From positions 1 to 20,688 of IMG/VR virus record IMGVR_UViG_3300009180_004363: 20,688 nt of DNA. One strand, 5' to 3'. Within the stretch, counting starts at the first letter, position 1; each line of letters starts with the position of its first letter. The position numbers and the translations under genes were made by a program. Below are positions 3,001-14,849 of this stretch, one piece after another. The DNA is from a virus. The notes beneath the pieces are model-generated. The model worked only from the letters and a program-made list of their open reading frames with translations, searched no databases and was not told the origin of the DNA.

Positions 3001-5825
3001 AAAGTATAATCTGTTGAGTTTATAACATTTTCTAATTCTGAATTAAGTTTAGATAAAAATATATCGTAGTGTTTGCCTTGTTTAATTAATATGTCACCCA
3101 AGTCATATGGTAAATTAGTAGCAACCACAGCAGTTTTACTCAATGGATCGCTGTGTTTTAAAAATGTGCCGCCACCAATGAACATGGTTGGCATAGAGTC
3201 TTGAACATCAATAAATTTTTTAATATCAGTGCTATTTGATAAGAAAGAACTAGCATTTTGATATAAACTATAATAATTTATTTTGTTCAGTGATTCATTC
3301 AACGGATTAACAACTAATGACGCAGGTGCTGTTTTAGACTGTGGATTTTGTATCATTGAATTGACACAGATTTTATCTCCTGTTTGAATTTTGTCAAAAA
3401 TTCCAGTGCTGGCATTGAGTTGCTTGTAGTATCCAACACTGCCGTCATCTAATATAGTATCATTTAGCGTATAATCAAAGTTATTGTATAATGGATTTGT
3501 TTTATCTTTAGTAAACACGCTTTGTAAAAAGTTCCAGTTATATAATGATTTTACATAAGCTGTTTTATATGTGCCATTGTATTCCCACAATAATTTTGTA
3601 TTTTCTATTGACAGTTCGTTGGCAATGTTGGTTCCAGAAATTGTTATACTTTCTCTTAGATCCAAAGTAATAGTTCCATTTCTAATACCGTTGTTAGAAA
3701 TATATCCACTGGGTATTACTTGTTTTTTTGTAATATTATTTGACAGCGTTGTTTTGTAAAATGTTATAGGATGAGGAAGATCATGACAGACAATTTTCAT
3801 AATCCCTTTGGATAATAATGGCAATACTTGTTCGGTATTGTCATCTCCTGTTTTTCCAGAAAATCTTATTAATCCATATCCTTCAACATCAAAATAAAAT
3901 TTATATTGATCAACTTCGTCGTAATAAATGTGAATTGATGTGAATCCATTTGTCACCGGAATAATTTCTGCAGACCACGCACTGTCTTCTGTTTTTTCGT
4001 ATAGTAAATCTTGCAGTTGTTTTGTAAAATCTAAACCTGTGCGTTTTTTATAAAAAGGAATTATTTTATCAATGGATTTATATCCATACGGTCCTTTAAT
4101 ACTTGATACCTCGTTAGTTGTAGTATTTGTATAGCTATATTCTTTGTCCACATCTGTAAAGAACGTAATTTGGTTTGGTATTACTTGTGTTACGTTGCTT
4201 TCTGATTCAATAGAATCAATATTTACATATCGACCCAAAACGTTGTCATAGGTTGTGCCTTCTTGAAAGCCTAAAATGACACCACCTTTAAAATTAGTAT
4301 TATTATACGATTTAATATCAATTTCGTTGCTGTCATAAAATTCAAATAATGGCGTTTGATTTGCTGTTATTTTGTTTTGAGCCAAGCGCCATTCATTATT
4401 TTTATAAACAACTTGATAGTATTCTGCTATTCCAGGAGAAACAATAATAGCTCCGTCGCCGTCTTTTATCTCTACATTCAGTGGAGAAAATGTTGTTCCA
4501 GTAGACAAGCCATTAACCTGCCACAATCCAGGAGTTGCTTCGAATACAACCTTATCACCGTCTTGTAAGGTGTATTTAAATTGATCTATTAGATCTGTTC
4601 TGTTTTCCCATCTTAATTTTTTACCAGGCAAAATAGCATTAATTTCAAATATATTGCCAGATGGCCAATTATATAACTTTACATCTTTATTAAAACTAAT
4701 AATAGGACGTGTGGCTTTATTTGCTATATTAATAAAATCTTCTACTTTTATATCTAAGAATTTAGCCACACTGCGTATTGTACTAATATGATGCCAACGA
4801 TCCATGGCCTGCCAATGGTTGGCATTATTAGTATATTTTTCTTGCACAACATATTCAACAAATTCAGTAGTCATATTACTACCGTCCCATTCGCTGTCGT
4901 CCCAAGAAGATTTAGGATAATCAAAAGTATTTCCGTATTGGTCCCATGGTCTTTTTTCTAAACCACTTATAGGAGTTCTTATTTCTAATTTTGATTTAAG
5001 AAACAAACCTATACTTTTCCCCACACCATAAACGTAATATGCTTTTATCTCTTCATTTATTGCTTTACCAGTTCCAGAGCCTGCACCAGTTGCAGTGAAT
5101 CCTAACTTAACTGTATTATCACTTGCACCTATTGCAGTGAAATCAGTGGTGCCTAATTCCGTAATTGTATAACTCTTGCCGGGAATAAAATTACCTGCAG
5201 ATATTTCATTAAAGGTTCTGTATTCAGTATCAATGGCACCAGTAAAATATACAACCATGCCATTTTGTAATTCTAATTCACGATTGATAGAATCATCTTT
5301 AATAGTTATAAATGGTTTACCTAACAAATCATTGACAATAGAAAATTTTGTAGAATTTAAATGAATTCTACAAGGTGGTAAATCATCAGTTAACCAATAA
5401 TATGAACTGTAGTCTGCTAATTTAATAGGATCTACTGGAAGATCCAATACGTTAATATTTTTATCTAAAACTACTCCGTCTTTTAATTGACTGCCTTTGA
5501 TATTAAAATAGTTATCAATATCATAATAAGAAACTTTGCCAAGATAAGTGTCGTCGCTTTTTTTAAGCACCAACATATTATTACCTTGACTTTCTCGTCG
5601 AACTTGATCACTTTCTACTTTAAAGAATTCTTCTATTTTGTTACTAGCTACTCTAGTACCATAAGTTTCTTTAAATGGTAGAATCTGCCCTTTGCTAGAC
5701 ATCACGTCTAGGCTGGAGTCTAACATTTTTTTATTAGGGTCTGTGGATAATCCGCTGGGTAATAAATTTATATTACTAACTTTAGCAGGAGTTAGTTGGG
5801 CAGGTTTTTTTACTTGTTTACTCAT
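1..5825 (-). CDS. Giant virion structural protein downstream of gp6, C-terminus outside window (partial)
   Basis: Reading the minus strand from ATG at 5825, I translated the frame codon by codon to base 1 and met no stop, giving at least 1,941 residues. The start overlaps the gp6 stop as ATGA, with AGGA a few bases upstream. The protein is rich in Asn, Tyr, Thr and Trp and has no signal peptide or membrane segment, as expected of a tail or baseplate protein. Residues about 213-252 form a small Gly/Thr-rich module containing GTTDFTAIGA and FTATGAGSGTGKA, a motif I know from many phage tail proteins. Other recognisable points are HWQAMDRWHH (about 336) and HPWEMLG followed by a WWD motif (1226 onwards), which I recall from very large structural proteins of marine T4-like phages. 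It occupies the place of T4 gene 7 (1,032 aa) but is much longer. A wedge or peripheral baseplate role is inferred from position. Host-contact function is possible but not shown. Confidence 0.85.
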   Translation of the reverse strand, partial: MSKQVKKPAQLTPAKVSNINLLPSGLSTDPNKKMLDSSLDVMSSKGQILPFKETYGTRVASNKIEEFFKVESDQVRRESQGNNMLVLKKSDDTYLGKVSYYDIDNYFNIKGSQLKDGVVLDKNINVLDLPVDPIKLADYSSYYWLTDDLPPCRIHLNSTKFSIVNDLLGKPFITIKDDSINRELELQNGMVVYFTGAIDTEYRTFNEISAGNFIPGKSYTITELGTTDFTAIGASDNTVKLGFTATGAGSGTGKAINEEIKAYYVYGVGKSIGLFLKSKLEIRTPISGLEKRPWDQYGNTFDYPKSSWDDSEWDGSNMTTEFVEYVVQEKYTNNANHWQAMDRWHHISTIRSVAKFLDIKVEDFINIANKATRPIISFNKDVKLYNWPSGNIFEINAILPGKKLRWENRTDLIDQFKYTLQDGDKVVFEATPGLWQVNGLSTGTTFSPLNVEIKDGDGAIIVSPGIAEYYQVVYKNNEWRLAQNKITANQTPLFEFYDSNEIDIKSYNNTNFKGGVILGFQEGTTYDNVLGRYVNIDSIESESNVTQVIPNQITFFTDVDKEYSYTNTTTNEVSSIKGPYGYKSIDKIIPFYKKRTGLDFTKQLQDLLYEKTEDSAWSAEIIPVTNGFTSIHIYYDEVDQYKFYFDVEGYGLIRFSGKTGDDNTEQVLPLLSKGIMKIVCHDLPHPITFYKTTLSNNITKKQVIPSGYISNNGIRNGTITLDLRESITISGTNIANELSIENTKLLWEYNGTYKTAYVKSLYNWNFLQSVFTKDKTNPLYNNFDYTLNDTILDDGSVGYYKQLNASTGIFDKIQTGDKICVNSMIQNPQSKTAPASLVVNPLNESLNKINYYSLYQNASSFLSNSTDIKKFIDVQDSMPTMFIGGGTFLKHSDPLSKTAVVATNLPYDLGDILIKQGKHYDIFLSKLNSELENVINSTDYTLLSSHEVLDLALNKIYIVSATDDLFWSHSNMIGWGSSNNYYQRILTLSNLKVNFKDSEFENISHHTGKESILHIICDKKILLRGSDYKLNSLNGEYVEIEFADTYRNKKVDIKQWFTTFRSMVPASLAKIGLTPVYKPALHFDAVVNGYFLHRHDGTRYYLKQGLDAQGNPVNLVEYYLYEYEKAVWSSIAYDVETNNQREILESQPGYFRNTSNTWEKSKQTINNELRQWMLENNIFIMKNDNYAATNGFTLKYQLGTGDGDYLVGSYKAVYNYMYDTDRPHSHPWEMLGYTIKPTWWDTYYSWTNPTKRIALKKALRVGKISNPAEDNVVNPAFARNIDIDHVNPDTLEDFPVTSSGNLISPLVFNELLLAASIYLSLDTFEASENWAAGDQGPYEQVFLNTQRGLAAQARARFLLAPAQYVNLNWVPGQTITNAWGNKLDRTSNFWQRGTIEHNYHRQIVDGDLIYTGGIESLYAEFCVLNNKDYVSEVIDKFSNIVVNKEFLLNGFTNKDNVRIQSTSMSTQKNILFVPEENYQVRTVKHYPEREIFYSGMKIIFDGANYSLNGFASEFGFFPYYTPKPGSSTTAVTIGNITVKEKNNYSNNIKFIQYGSLFSNRQEIYDILIGYGKYLEAMGIVYEEPEGADIRNWQLSAKQFMFWSNDLLAPGNYIDLNPCADFIKITKQYGQLENLEGTNENSGQCVDRLNKPLFSKDLLVTRDVNNILIKTKKTGSGIYGIKLVFVIYETVVHLDSTSIFGDVYFSTSQNTAKRSFITGGKKSINWTGAHYIPGYVFNGTSLIPNFDSMTEVGHTLLDIESTILDTEIVNASRAQFGLNRNIELRQLFLDQGNEVLFKNAITFNKGTVQVFDSLNPLTHQDGSKTKAYEEYMVRLGEFGNTKNVEYYEFEMLSDDVADDAKIIKFTETKGTDSNVLYVTNDSSRWVYRPYDKLLNFADKSSHGKLKRGGPIISGDTDLSVDTLDDLSSLYNEFIDLWSIPAY

Positions 5826-9733: not shown

Positions 9734-9760
9734 ATAAAAGGCACATTAAGTGCCTTTTAT
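9734..9760 (-). terminator. Hairpin terminator after the HNH gene
   Basis: ATAAAAGGCAC and GTGCCTTTTAT form an 11-bp perfect stem around a 5-base loop (9745-9749). Read on the minus strand, the TAA stop of the HNH gene touches the foot of the stem and the second arm ends in CCTTTTATATT. It should end the HNH transcript before gp25, separating a probable early gene from the late baseplate genes. The U-tract is short, so efficiency may be moderate. The symmetry would let it act on both strands. Confidence 0.75.
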
Positions 9761-10299
9761 TATCCTGTTGCTTGCCTTGGTTGTTCATAGCCTAGATATT
9801 CTGCCCAGGCGGGATCCCTCATGTGATAAGGATTATGTTGTTTAACAACTTTGACCATTTGCCAATAGCTGGGTTCTTTGGGCTTGGTCAATGGCTCTAT
9901 AGCTTTGGCACCTTTAAGCCAATTGCATGTACCACAACATGTAACTAAATTACTCCATGAACTATTACCGCCTTTGCTTTTTGGCTGTACATGATCTAAT
10001 GTCAAATCTTTGGCTTGAAATTGTTCTCCGCAGTATTGACAAGTGTAATTATCACGAAGATAAACCATTTTACGATTAAACAATACTTTATTTTTTGGAC
10101 GCACATAACGCTTGGTCATAATGATACTGGGCACAGGAATTGCTAATTTTTGACTGTGAACTACCCAATCATCATACTCTTTGACCACAGATACTTTGTT
10201 TAGATAAACTAGTTTGATGGCATAAGTCCAATCAATGACACTGGGTGGTAACATTGATAGTGGAGTACCATCGCTGTTTAAAAGTAATACATCACTCAT
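9760..10299 (-). CDS. HNH endonuclease
   Basis: This 179-residue protein has an HNH nuclease domain at about 80-130. It has a zinc ribbon CxxC at 87-90 and a second CxxC at 122-125, with the active-site segment LTLDHVQPKSKGG (99-111) giving Asp102-His103. Asn117 and Asn126 stand in the remaining HNH positions. The N-terminal 80 residues, from VLLLNSDGTPLSML to RYVRPKN, match a widespread stand-alone HNH family found in bacteria and phages. These enzymes nick or cut DNA with a divalent metal. The gene is not inside an intron or intein that I can see, so a homing role is not supported here. Roles in host DNA breakdown or in recombination/packaging remain open. It has its own strong promoter upstream and a terminator directly downstream, so it is a separate unit between the early cassette and late genes. 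Confidence 0.9.
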   Translation of the reverse strand: MSDVLLLNSDGTPLSMLPPSVIDWTYAIKLVYLNKVSVVKEYDDWVVHSQKLAIPVPSIIMTKRYVRPKNKVLFNRKMVYLRDNYTCQYCGEQFQAKDLTLDHVQPKSKGGNSSWSNLVTCCGTCNWLKGAKAIEPLTKPKEPSYWQMVKVVKQHNPYHMRDPAWAEYLGYEQPRQATG

Positions 10300-10339: not shown

Positions 10340-10368
10340 ATTATACAGCCTTAAATATATATTGTCAA
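10340..10368 (-). promoter_or_regulatory. Perfect sigma70-type promoter for the HNH gene
   Basis: On the minus strand TTGACA (10368-10363) and TATAAT (10345-10340) are separated by exactly 17 bases. Both hexamers and the spacing match the bacterial housekeeping consensus. The predicted start, near 10333, gives a leader of about 33 bases before the HNH ATG at 10299. A host-type consensus promoter in a T4-like phage suggests early expression before the polymerase is modified. Confidence 0.85.
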
Positions 10369-10394
10369 CTATGGCGGTTTTTAAGGAGATTAAA

Positions 10395-10607
10395 ATGGAC
10401 ATCGACTCTCTCGAACATCATATCAGAACTGTGGACAACAGACACACTCAATTGGCAAGACAACTTGAACAAATTCTTTCCCAAAAATCATGGGATGAAT
10501 ATCAAGTAGAAACACTTAAAAAAGAAAAACTTAAACTCAAAGATGAACTATCAATGTTGTATAGAAAACGGCAAGATTTAATGCAGGATCATCACTATGA
10601 TGAATAA
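10395..10607 (+). CDS. DUF465 (YdcH-like) small coiled-coil protein
   Basis: This 70-residue, charged, all-helical protein carries the DUF465/YdcH signature VETLKKEKLKLKDEL near its C-terminus, preceded by a helix with HTQLARQLEQIL. I chose ATG 10395 because AAGGAG (10383-10388) lies at ideal spacing. The upstream TTG at 10362 in the same frame has no ribosome binding site and lies in the -35 region of the divergent HNH promoter. Family members are short helical-hairpin proteins with no settled biochemical role. It is the first gene of the plus-strand accessory cassette and overlaps the next gene by 11 bases. I see no convincing promoter for it in the 95 bases shared with the divergent HNH gene. 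Confidence 0.8.
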   Translation: MDIDSLEHHIRTVDNRHTQLARQLEQILSQKSWDEYQVETLKKEKLKLKDELSMLYRKRQDLMQDHHYDE

Positions 10608-11439
10608 TACACCAAAACGAATACTAATAATGGGCTTACCTGGAGCTGGTAAGACATATTTGGCACAACATATTGTTGACCATTTACAAGATGCTTATAA
10701 AATTAATGAAACTTCACTGACACCTTTTAGGAAAGTCAAAGTTGGTTGGTTAAATGCCGATGATGTGCGTAAGAAATACAATGACTGGGACTTCAGTACA
10801 GAAGGCCGAGTTCGCCAAAGTCTGCGTATGCGAGAACTGGCTGATAGCATGACAGATGTAGATTATGTTATCTGTGACTTTGTTGCACCATTAGTAGAAA
10901 TGCGTAACAACTTTAAAGCAGATTGGACTGTTTGGGTTGATACTATTGACAAAGGCCGTTATGAAGACACTAATAAAGCATTTATTACTCCTGAACAATA
11001 TGATTTTAGAATCACAGAACAAAAGGCAGAAAAATGGGGCGAGTTTATTGCTTCACACATTTTAGACAATCGCAGACGTCCTGTGTTTGATTGGAAAAAA
11101 CCTACGGTGCAGATGTTGGGTCGTTGGCAACCTTGGCACGAAGGTCATCGTGCATTATTTGAACGTGCCATTACCAAAACTGGACAAGTTGTTATTCAAA
11201 TTCGAGACTGTCAAGGTTGGCAAGGAAGCAATCCATTTGAAATTGAAAAGGTAAAATCATTTATTCGTCGTGATTTGGACATGGTATATCAAGGGCAATA
11301 TGAAATCCAAGTTGTTCCAAATATTGTAAATATTACATATGGCAGAGATGTTGGTTACAAAATCGAAGAAGAAACATTTGATAAAAATATAACAGACGTC
11401 AGTGCTACTAAAATTAGAAAGAGTTTAGGCCTTGAGTGA
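10597..11439 (+). CDS. APS-kinase-like / nucleotidyltransferase fusion protein
   Basis: The protein has 280 residues and two domains. Residues 1-160 are a P-loop kinase with Walker A GLPGAGKT (13-20), NADDVRKKYNDWDFS (53-67) and CDFVAPL (93-99). These are in the same order as the P-loop, DGDNIR-type and FISP-type motifs of adenylylsulfate kinase (CysC). Residues 168-280 are a nucleotidyltransferase of the cytidylyl/NMN-adenylyltransferase superfamily, with GRWQPWHEGH (175-184, HxGH motif) and SATKIRKS (269-276, matching ISxTxxR). The natural substrate cannot be read from sequence. Candidates are NAD salvage (kinase plus NMN adenylyltransferase activities, as in NadR but in the opposite domain order) or a sulfonucleotide or lipid/sugar-linked reaction. 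ATG codons at 10597 and 10600 are both possible starts. The gene is translationally coupled to its neighbours on both sides and precedes a DUF2061 protein. Confidence 0.88.
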   Translation: MMNNTPKRILIMGLPGAGKTYLAQHIVDHLQDAYKINETSLTPFRKVKVGWLNADDVRKKYNDWDFSTEGRVRQSLRMRELADSMTDVDYVICDFVAPLVEMRNNFKADWTVWVDTIDKGRYEDTNKAFITPEQYDFRITEQKAEKWGEFIASHILDNRRRPVFDWKKPTVQMLGRWQPWHEGHRALFERAITKTGQVVIQIRDCQGWQGSNPFEIEKVKSFIRRDLDMVYQGQYEIQVVPNIVNITYGRDVGYKIEEETFDKNITDVSATKIRKSLGLE

Positions 11440-11632
11440 TACACCCACACGCAGTTTAGCCAAAGCAATTAGTTGGCGAGTAACCGGTACAGTTGACACA
11501 TTTATTATAAGTTGGCTGATAACCGGAGAACTTGCTTTAGCTGGCGGAATTGCGATAACTGAAGTCGTTACCAAAATATTTTTGTTTTGGTGTCATGAAC
11601 GAGTATGGAATAAAGTTAGTTGGGGTCGATAA
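11432..11632 (+). CDS. DUF2061 small membrane protein
   Basis: This 66-residue protein matches the DUF2061 family, with the opening RSLAKAISWRVTGTVDTF, hydrophobic stretches around 20-32 and 33-52, and the ending FLFWCHERVWNKVSWG. It probably forms a two-helix hairpin in the inner membrane. The start is TTG (11432), since no ATG or GTG occurs in frame near the family's N-terminus. It overlaps the end of the kinase fusion by 8 bases, which suggests coupled translation. The function is unknown. From memory, bacterial DUF2061 genes are sometimes fused or adjacent to APS-kinase genes. If so, the pairing with an APS-kinase-like domain here is a meaningful association rather than chance. Confidence 0.85.
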   Translation: MSDTPTRSLAKAISWRVTGTVDTFIISWLITGELALAGGIAITEVVTKIFLFWCHERVWNKVSWGR

Positions 11633-11640
11633 AGTTGCTG

Positions 11641-11680
11641 TAATTGTCACAGACAATGATTAAAAATCATTAATTGACAC
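11641..11680 (+). repeat. Tandem palindromes and direct repeat upstream of the ligase promoter
   Basis: Two perfect inverted repeats lie directly before the -35 box. ATTGTC-ACA-GACAAT is at 11643-11657 and AATGATT-AAA-AATCATT at 11655-11671, overlapping by three bases. The block is framed by near-identical copies TAATTGTCAC (11641-11650) and TAATTGACAC (11671-11680), 30 bases apart and so on the same helix face; the second copy contains the -35 box. The arrangement resembles an operator or activator site. No binding protein is known to me. Confidence 0.5.
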
Positions 11681-11702
11681 AAAATCTCTATGCTGTTATA
11701 AT
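11674..11702 (+). promoter_or_regulatory. Perfect sigma70-type promoter for the ligase operon
   Basis: TTGACA (11674-11679) and TATAAT (11697-11702) are separated by exactly 17 bases, a full consensus match. The expected start near 11709 gives a leader of about 24 bases containing GGAG (11724-11727) before the ligase ATG at 11733. The -10 box lies in the loop of the terminator hairpin that ends the upstream unit. Confidence 0.88.
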
Positions 11703-11723
11703 ATGGCATAGAGATTTTTTTTT
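11682..11723 (+). terminator. Rho-independent terminator of the DUF465-kinase-DUF2061 unit
   Basis: AAATCTCTATGC (11682-11693) pairs perfectly with GCATAGAGATTT (11706-11717) around a 12-base loop, and nine T residues run from 11715 to 11723. This is a canonical intrinsic terminator on the plus strand, placed about 50 bases after the DUF2061 stop. The loop and the second arm are shared with the promoter of the next operon. A transcript starting near 11709 would lack the first arm and could not fold the hairpin. Confidence 0.85.
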
Positions 11724-11732
11724 GGAGACTAA

Positions 11733-13049
11733 ATGTTTGATCCTTGCTATTATGTTATCAGCAGTTTAGAAGATCACAATCTTCGCACTAACAAAGAACA
11801 AATTATCCTTGCCCAAGCTGAAGCAGGCAATGATGAATTTTTTGAAGGCTGTCGTCTTGCCTTAGACAGCACCATTACATTTGGTATTAAACAAGTTCCA
11901 GAACGCAGTGGGCCTGATGGCCCTGGTGTTGATTGGGACTCATTTACACTTATCATCACTGGTTTTGTTAATCGCAGTATCACTGGTAACCTTGCTCGGA
12001 GTACCATTGATCAGTTAATGTCAAACTGTACTAATGCACAATGGAATGGTTGGTATCGTCGCATCCTTATCAAAGATCTACGCTGTGGTGTCAGTGAAAA
12101 AACAATCAACAAGGTTGTGGAGAAGAAATATACTGACTATGCTATTCCAGTTTTTGGCTGTCAGCTTGCCCATGATAGTGCTAATCATGAAGCTAAGGTC
12201 CGAGGATCTAGACTTATCGAGGTTAAACTTGATGGTGTTCGTGTTATCACTATAGTGTACCCTGATGGTCGCGTCAACATGTTTAGTCGCAATGGTAAAG
12301 AGCTTGTTAACTTTCCTCACATAGCAGAGCAGTTTAAATCTATCACAGATACGCTGTTAGAGCCTTGGGTCTTTGATGGTGAGATTATGTCAAGCAGTTT
12401 CCAAGATTTGATGAAACAAGTACATCGTAAAAGCGATGTTAATGCAGAAGATGCAATTCTACATTTGTTTGATTGTATTCCATTGGTTCATTTTGAACAA
12501 GGAACCTGGAACGCTACCCAAGAATTTCGTAGCAATCATTTAAAAGAGTTCATGCTTCATCATCAAAACTCTTTGCCTAATGTAACAATGGTGGGTCAAG
12601 AACTAGTTGATTTGGACTCTGAATCAGGTCAACAAAAATATAAAGAAATTAATGCACTGGCCATCGAAGGCGGCTATGAAGGCATTATGATTAAGGATCC
12701 TTTGGCTCCTTATGAATGCAAGCGAAGTCATGCTTGGTTGAAACTAAAGCCTTTTATTGAAGTAAGTTTGGAGGTACAAGGTGTCGAAGAAGGAACAGGA
12801 AGAAATGAAGGACGATTGGGCGCACTTATCTGCGCCGGAGACGATGGAGGGCGATATATTGAAGTCAATTGCGGTAGCGGTTTTAGTGATCTCGATAGGA
12901 GCAACTTTTGGACTAATCGTAATTCACTGTTTGGAACAGTGGTTGAAGTAAGAGCAGATGCTATTACACAAAATCAAGATGGTACATATAGTCTGCGTTT
13001 TCCTAGATTTTTACGTTTCCGAGGTTTTGAAGCAGGGGAGAAATTGTAA
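11733..13049 (+). CDS. ATP-dependent DNA ligase
   Basis: This 438-residue ligase of the T4 gp30 type seals nicks in duplex DNA through an enzyme-AMP intermediate. The nucleotidyltransferase motifs are intact. They are motif I EVKLDGVR with adenylated Lys165, SRNGKE (185-190), WVFDGEIM (212-219), HLFDC (244-248), motif IV YEGIMIKDP (315-323) and motif V WLKLKP (335-340). An OB-fold domain follows to the C-terminus. The N-terminal 150 residues, with DLRCGVSEKTIN (115-126), form the helical DNA-binding domain of this family. It is somewhat shorter than T4 ligase (487). It is the first gene behind a perfect consensus promoter and is followed by small genes sharing TAATG and ATGA junctions, so it heads a replication-time operon. 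A ligase of its own would let the phage join Okazaki fragments independently of the NAD-dependent host enzyme. Confidence 0.96.
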   Translation: MFDPCYYVISSLEDHNLRTNKEQIILAQAEAGNDEFFEGCRLALDSTITFGIKQVPERSGPDGPGVDWDSFTLIITGFVNRSITGNLARSTIDQLMSNCTNAQWNGWYRRILIKDLRCGVSEKTINKVVEKKYTDYAIPVFGCQLAHDSANHEAKVRGSRLIEVKLDGVRVITIVYPDGRVNMFSRNGKELVNFPHIAEQFKSITDTLLEPWVFDGEIMSSSFQDLMKQVHRKSDVNAEDAILHLFDCIPLVHFEQGTWNATQEFRSNHLKEFMLHHQNSLPNVTMVGQELVDLDSESGQQKYKEINALAIEGGYEGIMIKDPLAPYECKRSHAWLKLKPFIEVSLEVQGVEEGTGRNEGRLGALICAGDDGGRYIEVNCGSGFSDLDRSNFWTNRNSLFGTVVEVRADAITQNQDGTYSLRFPRFLRFRGFEAGEKL

Positions 13050-13300
13050 TGGGCAATCAAACTGACTACTTTGAAAGAATTGGATATAAGCCAACATGGT
13101 ATATTGGTGATAGAGTATTTGGCTATTGGAATAAAATTCCATTTATTGGAACGGTTGGCAACGATACTGTGATTAATCATATAGAAGGTCCTCGGATTAG
13201 TGTGCATTTAGATTTGCCAATTAAGTTTGACAAGCAAGTATATCATGTTATAATAGTAAAACACGAAGATATCAAGGCTTTACATGAATACAAAGATTAA
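13049..13300 (+). CDS. Small phage protein of unknown function
   Basis: This 83-residue soluble protein has a predicted beta-rich core. GDRVFGYWNKIPFIGTVGND (20-39) resembles the opening strands of an SH3-like barrel, but I do not recognise the family. The start overlaps the ligase stop as TAATG, and AGGGGAG (13034-13040) is a strong ribosome binding site, so expression is coupled to the ligase. The 3' end overlaps the next gene by 17 bases. A nucleic-acid or ligase partner role is conceivable from position only. Confidence 0.7.
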   Translation: MGNQTDYFERIGYKPTWYIGDRVFGYWNKIPFIGTVGNDTVINHIEGPRISVHLDLPIKFDKQVYHVIIVKHEDIKALHEYKD

Positions 13301-13499
13301 AGAACTAGCACTTAAATGCTATAACCCTTACTCAAATTTTGATCACGATTTATTTGCAAAATTAATTGTAGAAGACATTATGCAAATTATGGCTGATCCA
13401 AAAACTTATAACAGATGCACTCACACTACACACGATTTAGATCGTGCTCAATGTGTTGCCAGCGAAATTGCTAAAAAAATCTACGAGGAATACTTATGA
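13284..13499 (+). CDS. Small phage protein of unknown function
   Basis: This 71-residue protein is mainly helical. MNTKIKELALKC and FAKLIVEDIMQIM, and a C-terminal helix ending IAKKIYEEYL, resemble short conserved hypothetical proteins common in T4-like phages. The start lies inside the end of the previous gene, with AAGG just upstream. The stop overlaps the next ATG as ATGA. It has no catalytic motif or membrane segment. Confidence 0.72.
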   Translation: MNTKIKELALKCYNPYSNFDHDLFAKLIVEDIMQIMADPKTYNRCTHTTHDLDRAQCVASEIAKKIYEEYL

Positions 13500-13699
13500 C
13501 TTATGTTACAGTTGATGTTGATCTATCAGATTTTGACACAGACGACTTAGTTGAAGAACTTGAACTTCGTGGAGAAGTTATCGGTGGTTTCAATAATTCT
13601 AGTTTAGTTACTACTATCTATGAAAAACGTAGACTAGGACAAGATTACCAAAGTGAACTAGATACTCTAATCTACGAAGTTACCGGAAGAGTTTTATGA
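13496..13699 (+). CDS. Small acidic phage protein of unknown function
   Basis: This 67-residue protein opens with an acidic segment, VDVDLSDFDTDDLVEELELR, a pattern I recognise from short hypothetical proteins of several T4-like phages. Both ends overlap neighbours as ATGA, and GAGGAA (13485-13490) precedes the start. The strong negative charge would fit a protein-protein contact or a DNA-mimic, but nothing in the sequence decides this. Confidence 0.72.
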   Translation: MTYVTVDVDLSDFDTDDLVEELELRGEVIGGFNNSSLVTTIYEKRRLGQDYQSELDTLIYEVTGRVL

Positions 13700-14010
13700 A
13701 AAATTGGCTACGAAATAAATTACACAACTTTATCTTTTCTTCAGAAAGTACTCAACCTGACTCTTATTCTGATAGAAAAATGAATGCTACGATTAGCAGT
13801 CGTGTCCATCACAGTCAAACACTGGGCAGTGAAAACGAGCCTTTACGATTTACAGTTTACAATGCTTCAGGAGGCAAAATTGTTGAAATTAGTCACTACG
13901 ATCAAAGAACGGATCGTCACTATACGAGCTTACATATTATTGGCAGTGACGAGGACTTTGGAGCTGAACTTGGAAAGATTGCGTTCCTCGAAGCACTTAA
14001 AAAAGGATAA
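13696..14010 (+). CDS. Small phage protein of unknown function
   Basis: This 104-residue protein opens with MKNWLRNKLHNFIF, an amphipathic basic helix, followed by a polar linker. A beta-rich part then runs from LRFTVYNASGGKIVEI to YDQRTDRHYTSLHII, and the protein ends with ELGKIAFLEAL. Similar proteins occur in marine T4-like phages without an assigned role. The start overlaps the previous stop as ATGA. The amphipathic N-terminus could touch a membrane or another protein; that is inference. Confidence 0.72.
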   Translation: MKNWLRNKLHNFIFSSESTQPDSYSDRKMNATISSRVHHSQTLGSENEPLRFTVYNASGGKIVEISHYDQRTDRHYTSLHIIGSDEDFGAELGKIAFLEALKKG

Positions 14011-14014
14011 TATT

Positions 14015-14251
14015 ATGCTTACTGAAAGCGAAATTGGATCGGTACTTGCCGCACAGTTGATGGCTGCGATTAGAAACCGAGAACAATCTTATGTCAGTCA
14101 TATTGATTCCCGATATTCACATTTAGAATCTCCTGGTAAAAAGCTCATGGCAGAACTGGTTGATATGATGTTTATCAAAGCAGTTGAACTCGACAAACAA
14201 CGCAGACAGCAGGATGCCGAACAACTAGTCATGGAAAATCTTAAAAAATGA
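14015..14251 (+). CDS. Small helical phage protein of unknown function
   Basis: This is a 78-residue helical protein. I start it at ATG 14015 because AAAAGGA (14001-14007) lies at good spacing and directly follows the end of the previous gene. Longer versions starting at 13784 would run through that gene in another frame. The sequence is polar, with a Gln/Arg-rich C-terminal helix (about 57-75) and a middle hydrophobic helix LMAELVDMMFIKAVEL. It has no known motif. The 3' end overlaps the next start as ATGA. Confidence 0.7.
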   Translation: MLTESEIGSVLAAQLMAAIRNREQSYVSHIDSRYSHLESPGKKLMAELVDMMFIKAVELDKQRRQQDAEQLVMENLKK

Positions 14252-14484
14252 CAATTACTTATTCAACACCTAAAATTACATTTAAAACTTGGCATTCAGG
14301 AATGAACGATTTTCATTTTTGTCCTGATGGTATTAGCCTTGTGCCAAGAGCAGGATTTCAAATCGATAATAAATGTCCCAGAGAATATAAGTTAATCATC
14401 GCCGAATGCATTAACAATGGATGGTTAAAAGCTGTATCACATCAGCCTATACACGAAGCTTTTATGGAAGAACTAACAAGATGA
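14248..14484 (+). CDS. Small phage protein of unknown function
   Basis: This 78-residue protein has a compact conserved-looking core: GISLVPRAGFQID (29-41), CPREYKLIIAECINNGWLK (44-62). I recall this pattern from hypothetical proteins of marine T4-like phages. The start overlaps the previous stop as ATGA, and its own stop overlaps the MazG-like start in the same way. No function can be assigned. Confidence 0.72.
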   Translation: MTITYSTPKITFKTWHSGMNDFHFCPDGISLVPRAGFQIDNKCPREYKLIIAECINNGWLKAVSHQPIHEAFMEELTR

Positions 14485-14849
14485 CAAACCCTTTTAAAGA
14501 TCAAGAACGATTTATGACTGCATGTGACCAAAAAGTCGATGCGTATTCTATTTCTCAATACAAAATGTATTTGAATCTCATTGAAGAAGAACACACAGAA
14601 CTTAAAGAAGCAGTTGCTGCCAATGACTTAGTTGAACAACTAGATGCACTAATTGATATTTTAGTTGTTACTATTGGTGCCATTCATAGTGCAGGTTTTG
14701 ATGGCGAAGGTGCATGGAAAGAAGTTATGCGAACCAACTTTGCTAAAATTGATCCAACAACCGGCAAAGTTCGAAAACGTGAAGATGGCAAAGTTCTTAA
14801 ACCAGAAGGTTGGACTAGTCCTGAACTAACACCTTTTCTAAAACGCTGA
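14481..14849 (+). CDS. MazG-like nucleoside triphosphate pyrophosphohydrolase
   Basis: This 122-residue protein belongs to the all-alpha NTP pyrophosphohydrolase superfamily (MazG / phosphoribosyl-ATP pyrophosphohydrolase-like). Such enzymes cut (d)NTPs to the monophosphate and pyrophosphate using Mg2+. The metal-binding pattern is present, with ExxE at 37-40 (EEEHTEL), ExxD at 52-55 and a further Asp59 in EQLDALIDILVV. The C-terminal part, with NFAKIDPTTGKV and REDGKVLKPEGW, is typical of the phage version. I chose ATG 14481 over a longer frame from 14421, because that extension overlaps the previous gene by 64 bases and lacks the family's N-terminus. It is the last gene of the plus-strand cassette and converges with the hub operon, 2 bases away, with no clear terminator between. 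Roles in dNTP pool control are plausible; a role in ppGpp signalling is speculative. Confidence 0.88.
   Translation: MTNPFKDQERFMTACDQKVDAYSISQYKMYLNLIEEEHTELKEAVAANDLVEQLDALIDILVVTIGAIHSAGFDGEGAWKEVMRTNFAKIDPTTGKVRKREDGKVLKPEGWTSPELTPFLKR

Follow-up and report, generated by a model that had tools for sequence, protein, structure and literature searches.

The promoter(early) stem-loop cassettes, or PeSLs, are said to have been described in T4-type phages such as RB49 and Phi1 by Arbiol et al. in 2010 and Comeau et al. in 2014, and the RB49/Phi1 pair is reportedly the source of the concept. PMC4503421 cites PeSLs as composite motifs of promoter and terminator through which genes are shuffled in T4-type phages. 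In our genome scans, RB49 had a nested layout at position 3201 (minus strand), in which TATAAT is the hexaloop of a hairpin with a T-rich tail, TTGACATACAAGGGAGATTCTCTATAATGGGAGTCTCCCTTTTCTTTT; the same was found in Phi1 at 3202 (minus strand). A second nested case was located in RB49 at 112374 (minus strand), with a counterpart in Phi1. RB49 also contained tandem terminator-promoter pairs, as well as hairpins in the spacer or around the -10 box that have no U-run. The scans of T4, KVP40 and nt-1 returned no clean nested case, only weak and chance-like ones, and a literature search for a promoter within a terminator yielded no matching papers. The layout itself is already known, as it is present in RB49 and Phi1.

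The locus in this study belongs to an uncultivated large phage, and the window is the whole of its virus record, IMGVR_UViG_3300009180_004363, with a length of 20,688 bases. A plus-strand run of small genes (10362-14849) is flanked on both sides by minus-strand baseplate genes (gp25-like, gp6-like and hub/lysozyme). The gp6-like baseplate protein was nearest to those of RaK2, 121Q, PA5oct and Atu_ph07-type large phages, at about 32-42% identity, and RB49 and T4 were absent among the 50 matches listed. Within the plus-strand run, a joint separates two genes. On one side is the final gene of the upstream unit, coding for a DUF2061 predicted membrane protein of 66 aa (11432-11632, plus strand; Pfam PF09834, E 3.3e-22), with its stop codon at 11630-11632. 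On the other side is a gene for an ATP-dependent DNA ligase of 438 aa (11733-13049, plus strand; PF01068, E 1.6e-19; phrog_114, E 2.3e-93), preceded by a GGAG ribosome-binding site (11724-11727, plus strand) that recurs as GGAG or close variants in relatives. The region 10597-11439 encodes a 280-aa protein with a kinase-like P-loop in its N-terminal part and a C-terminal part weakly like nicotinamide-nucleotide adenylyltransferase.

Because the same nested layout occurs in RB49 and Phi1, the mechanism can be regarded as known in kind, and we read the joint in the window as PeSL-like in an unrelated phage lineage. It is probably a composite joint in which promoter and terminator are nested, with a function like that of the PeSL cassettes in T4-type phages.

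Architecture of the promoter-terminator joint

As claimed in the preliminary description, a perfect sigma-70 promoter and a terminator hairpin with nine T's occupy the same 50 bases, all on the plus strand. The -35 box, TTGACA, lies at 11674-11679 and is separated by a 17-nt spacer from TATAAT at 11697-11702, with an extended -10 TGT at 11694-11696. The left arm of the hairpin (11681-11696) starts just behind the -35 box and runs within the spacer, including the TG of the extended -10 (11694-11695). The -10 box is exactly the hexaloop, and the right arm (11703-11718) overlaps both the predicted start site, placed at 11708-11710 from the -10 spacing, and the leader at the 5' end of the ligase mRNA. 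The nine-T run (11715-11723) provides the U-tract, so that a stem-loop is followed directly by a U-run as in intrinsic (Rho-independent) terminators. The 12-bp stem reported before (11685-11696 with 11703-11714) is the core of a 16-bp hairpin (11681-11718), in which four further A-U pairs take up part of the T-run. Because the stem is A/U-rich with 4 G-C pairs, the termination efficiency is uncertain. A bidirectional terminator was considered and rejected; the minus strand offers only TTTTG past the hairpin, which makes a one-way terminator likelier.

The nesting of the promoter in the hairpin is not a product of chance. Over 1,500 dinucleotide-shuffled versions of the window, 0.05 perfect promoters were expected per version, and a nested perfect promoter-hairpin appeared once in total. 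The promoter is one of three in the window that match at 12/12 (promoter/terminator scan), and the hairpin is the longest stem that the scan detected. The segment 11660-11745 folded at -22.2 kcal/mol (z = -4.7), with none of 200 shuffles as stable, and the hairpin by itself at -18.9 kcal/mol. In structural terms, the folding supports the earlier proposal that a transcript that enters from upstream is able to fold into the complete hairpin with its U-run. It also agrees with the proposal that a transcript started internally would escape, as the arm remnant in RNAs begun at 11708-11710 did not fold into a terminator hairpin.

From this anatomy, we suggest that polymerase arriving from the upstream gene would transcribe the full hairpin and the U-run and terminate at about 11719-11723. 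Host sigma-70 polymerase, which is assumed here, would initiate at about 11708-11710 and produce the ligase mRNA, which could not fold the terminator because only the right arm is retained. Occlusion of the joint promoter by read-through is plausible. The joint would mark an edge that stays in place as entire genes upstream of it are acquired, lost or swapped, and the ligase gene would keep its own promoter, shielded from anything upstream.

The two other 12/12 promoters in the window are at 10340-10368 (minus strand), facing an HNH endonuclease gene (9760-10299), and at 13227-13254 (plus strand), at the 3' end of the ORF 13049-13300 and before the ORF 13284-13499.

Conservation before the ligase gene

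The ligase search recovered 80 loci, 79 of which had readable upstream DNA, and in 19 of the 79 the same nested element was found 5' of the ligase gene. All of the 19 loci fall into one clade (support 99/99), in which the element is a single change on the ligase tree; all have a 12/12 promoter, and the -10 box sits 28-31 bases ahead of the ATG. TTGACA and TATAAT were unchanged across 14 distinct copies of the element. The T-run was kept in all relatives, and G-U pairs and loop-length changes were present in the hairpin. Compensatory changes occurred in the stem at columns 20/52 (AU, UA and GC) and 28/44 (GC to AU). The covariation score was 0.131, compared to 0.074 +/- 0.010 in shuffles, of which none of 500 was as high, and to at most 0.067 in slid controls; nine of the 16 stem pairs never vary, and double changes were found in only two pairs. 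The -35 box is not part of the hairpin, and the start site comes before the right arm and the T-run, so that neither function alone explains this conservation. The promoter and the terminator look to be under separate constraint, and both look selected.

The expectation that hairpin and promoter are conserved together holds for the 19 loci of this one ligase clade, but not beyond it: 45 of the 60 other ligase loci have a strong promoter, in most cases at a similar position, but no hairpin. Of the two, the promoter is therefore the more widespread, and the terminator is particular to one clade. Matches to the sequence pattern of the element in viral contigs sit ahead of a ligase gene, and two near-complete relatives, G001 and G002, have the nested form once per genome. 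A dispersed repeat was ruled out, since the nested sequence occurs solely before the ligase gene. In Rfam, the element gave only sub-threshold chance matches, and BLAST against named phages gave no convincing match; a T4 match 5' of segC (E 8), with neither TATAAT nor a long U-run, was attributed to chance. The nested joint is real and, judged by its conservation, appears functional, and the proposed mechanism is strongly suggested.

The upstream stop codon and turnover of upstream genes

Among the 16 joints examined, 15 have the upstream stop codon adjoining or overlapping the -35 box, at a distance of 8-16 nt from the core of the hairpin. The window is the sole exception, with 53 nt from the stop codon to the core. 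In Escherichia coli, bringing the stop codon closer to the tR2 terminator, from a distance of 28 nt to one of 5 nt, cut termination from about 90% to <10%, and termination was maximal at stop-codon distances >27 nt (PMC4824070). A translating ribosome may therefore weaken the terminator in the 15 joints. From these distances and the tR2 data, the joint in the window should terminate well, and those of most relatives may leak if the upstream gene is translated. The view of the joint as an insulator that ends one operon and starts the next is therefore least certain in most of the relatives. Just 5' of the joint in the window, at about 11648-11661, TAATTGTCACAGA resembles the joint start TAATTGACACAGA of relatives. 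This may be the remnant of an earlier joint, which would account for the long gap after the stop codon that was found in the window alone.

It is possible, though somewhat unlikely, that the hairpin is a terminator that senses translation and not a constant insulator. The left arm would then be covered when a ribosome sits at the upstream stop codon, and polymerase would read into the ligase gene and occlude its promoter; with the upstream gene untranslated, transcription would end and the internal promoter would take over. The contact between stop codon and -35 box in nearly all of the joints and the collapse of tR2 termination next to a stop codon are consistent with this. However, full termination is expected at the distance found in the window, and the fusion is also common at promoters that have no hairpin, so it may serve compactness or recombination rather than gating. 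Of the 20 perfect promoters in each of two relatives of about 235 kb, 10 and 11, respectively, have the -35 box in contact or overlap with the upstream stop codon, compared to a TAA before 4 of 245 and 3 of 230 other TTGACA sites.

Many of these perfect promoters share almost the same sequence (TTGACACAAATTGGTTTTGG...TATAAT) and occur in clusters. The clusters lie at 136241-140407 in G001 (235,561 bp) and at 26780-31000, 160136-161836 and 230168-231587 in G002, with promoters spaced roughly 200-1,500 bases apart and the upstream TAA stop often fused to the -35 box. At position 201271 of G001 (1772-1836 of locus L132), the -10 box of a perfect promoter opens a very stable hairpin, TATAATACTTGCTTG...CAAGCGAGTATTATA, that reaches an ATG and has no U-run; it could control translation. 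At L133:2120 and L136:2350, the -10 box lies at the centre of an inverted repeat (AATAATCCATTATAATATGGATTGTT) that also has no U-run, as at several RB49 promoters.

Four different gene families precede the joint among relatives, and the upstream gene changed at least six times over 14 tips of the ligase tree. In locus L004, TAATTGACACA...TATAAT stands between the genes F8 and F13, and TAATTGACA with the nested element comes after F13. In L005, F13 is absent and F8 leads directly into TAATTGACACAGA with the nested element. The difference between the two loci is one whole gene, exactly between two TAATTGACA joints, and this may be the expected remnant of recombination between two like joints. 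We infer that the joint marks a border for the exchange of upstream genes, a role that the preliminary description had missed.

Both the turnover at the joint and the clean single-gene difference between like joint ends argue against a plain terminator of the upstream unit, in which overlap with the promoter would reflect genome compaction with no linked function and no role in recombination. We consider that explanation unlikely, even though phage genomes are compact and other promoters in these genomes likewise overlap upstream genes. It is very improbable that the palindrome serves a DNA-binding protein of the phage as operator and is not a terminator: a long near-perfect palindrome does span the -10 box, and RB49 has such palindromes without a U-run over -10 boxes, but the G-U pairs, the loop-length changes, the T-run kept in all relatives and the lack of a second copy elsewhere in G001 and G002 speak against it.

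In line with the stop codon/-35 fusions and the clusters of near-identical promoters, we tentatively propose, with considerable doubt, that the variable regions of this lineage might consist of single-gene modules with standard ends (a stop codon fused to the next -35 box, TAATTGACA...TATAAT) that are swapped by recombination. The nested terminator at the ligase gene might then be a specialised joint that protects an important gene, with termination set by the translation of the incoming upstream gene. Given such standard ends, swaps between near-identical promoters would keep the reading frame, the termination and the promoter.

Comparison with PeSLs and other known systems

With this locus, a composite promoter-terminator joint of the kind known from T4-type phages is seen in a distant large-phage lineage, and in its most compressed form, since the -10 box is the hairpin loop and, in relatives, the stop codon is fused to the -35 box. 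It offers a testable model for phage gene exchange that would leave transcription intact, and a candidate natural insulator-promoter part of 50 bases.

The tandem terminator-promoter pairs of RB49, which are rarer in the relatives of the window, likewise end and start units within about 80 bases; the terminator stands beside the promoter in those pairs, whereas the two are nested in the window. Intrinsic terminators that are repressed by ribosomes, such as those in the tR2 constructs and the pyrBI attenuator (PMC4824070), resemble the joint of most relatives in having a hairpin a few nt past a stop codon. They differ in that they have no internal promoter, and their effect was measured only in E. 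coli constructs.

The PeSLs likewise combine a strong sigma-70-like promoter with a terminator stem-loop at the borders of gene modules. The early promoter of a PeSL has its equivalent, by sequence, in the 12/12 promoter with an extended -10, invariant in relatives, and the stem-loop in a predicted hairpin with nine T's, a z of -4.7 and compensatory changes, which should be able to terminate. The phage lineage is different, being nearest by its baseplate protein to large phages of the RaK2/PA5oct/Atu_ph07 type and not of the T4 type. PeSLs occur in many copies over variable regions; G001 and G002 have numerous promoters of similar sequence with no hairpin. Compared to the many promoter/hairpin composites of RB49, the lineage of the window has a single nested copy per genome that is locked to the ligase gene, and in most of its relatives, unlike in PeSLs, the upstream stop codon is fused to the -35 box.
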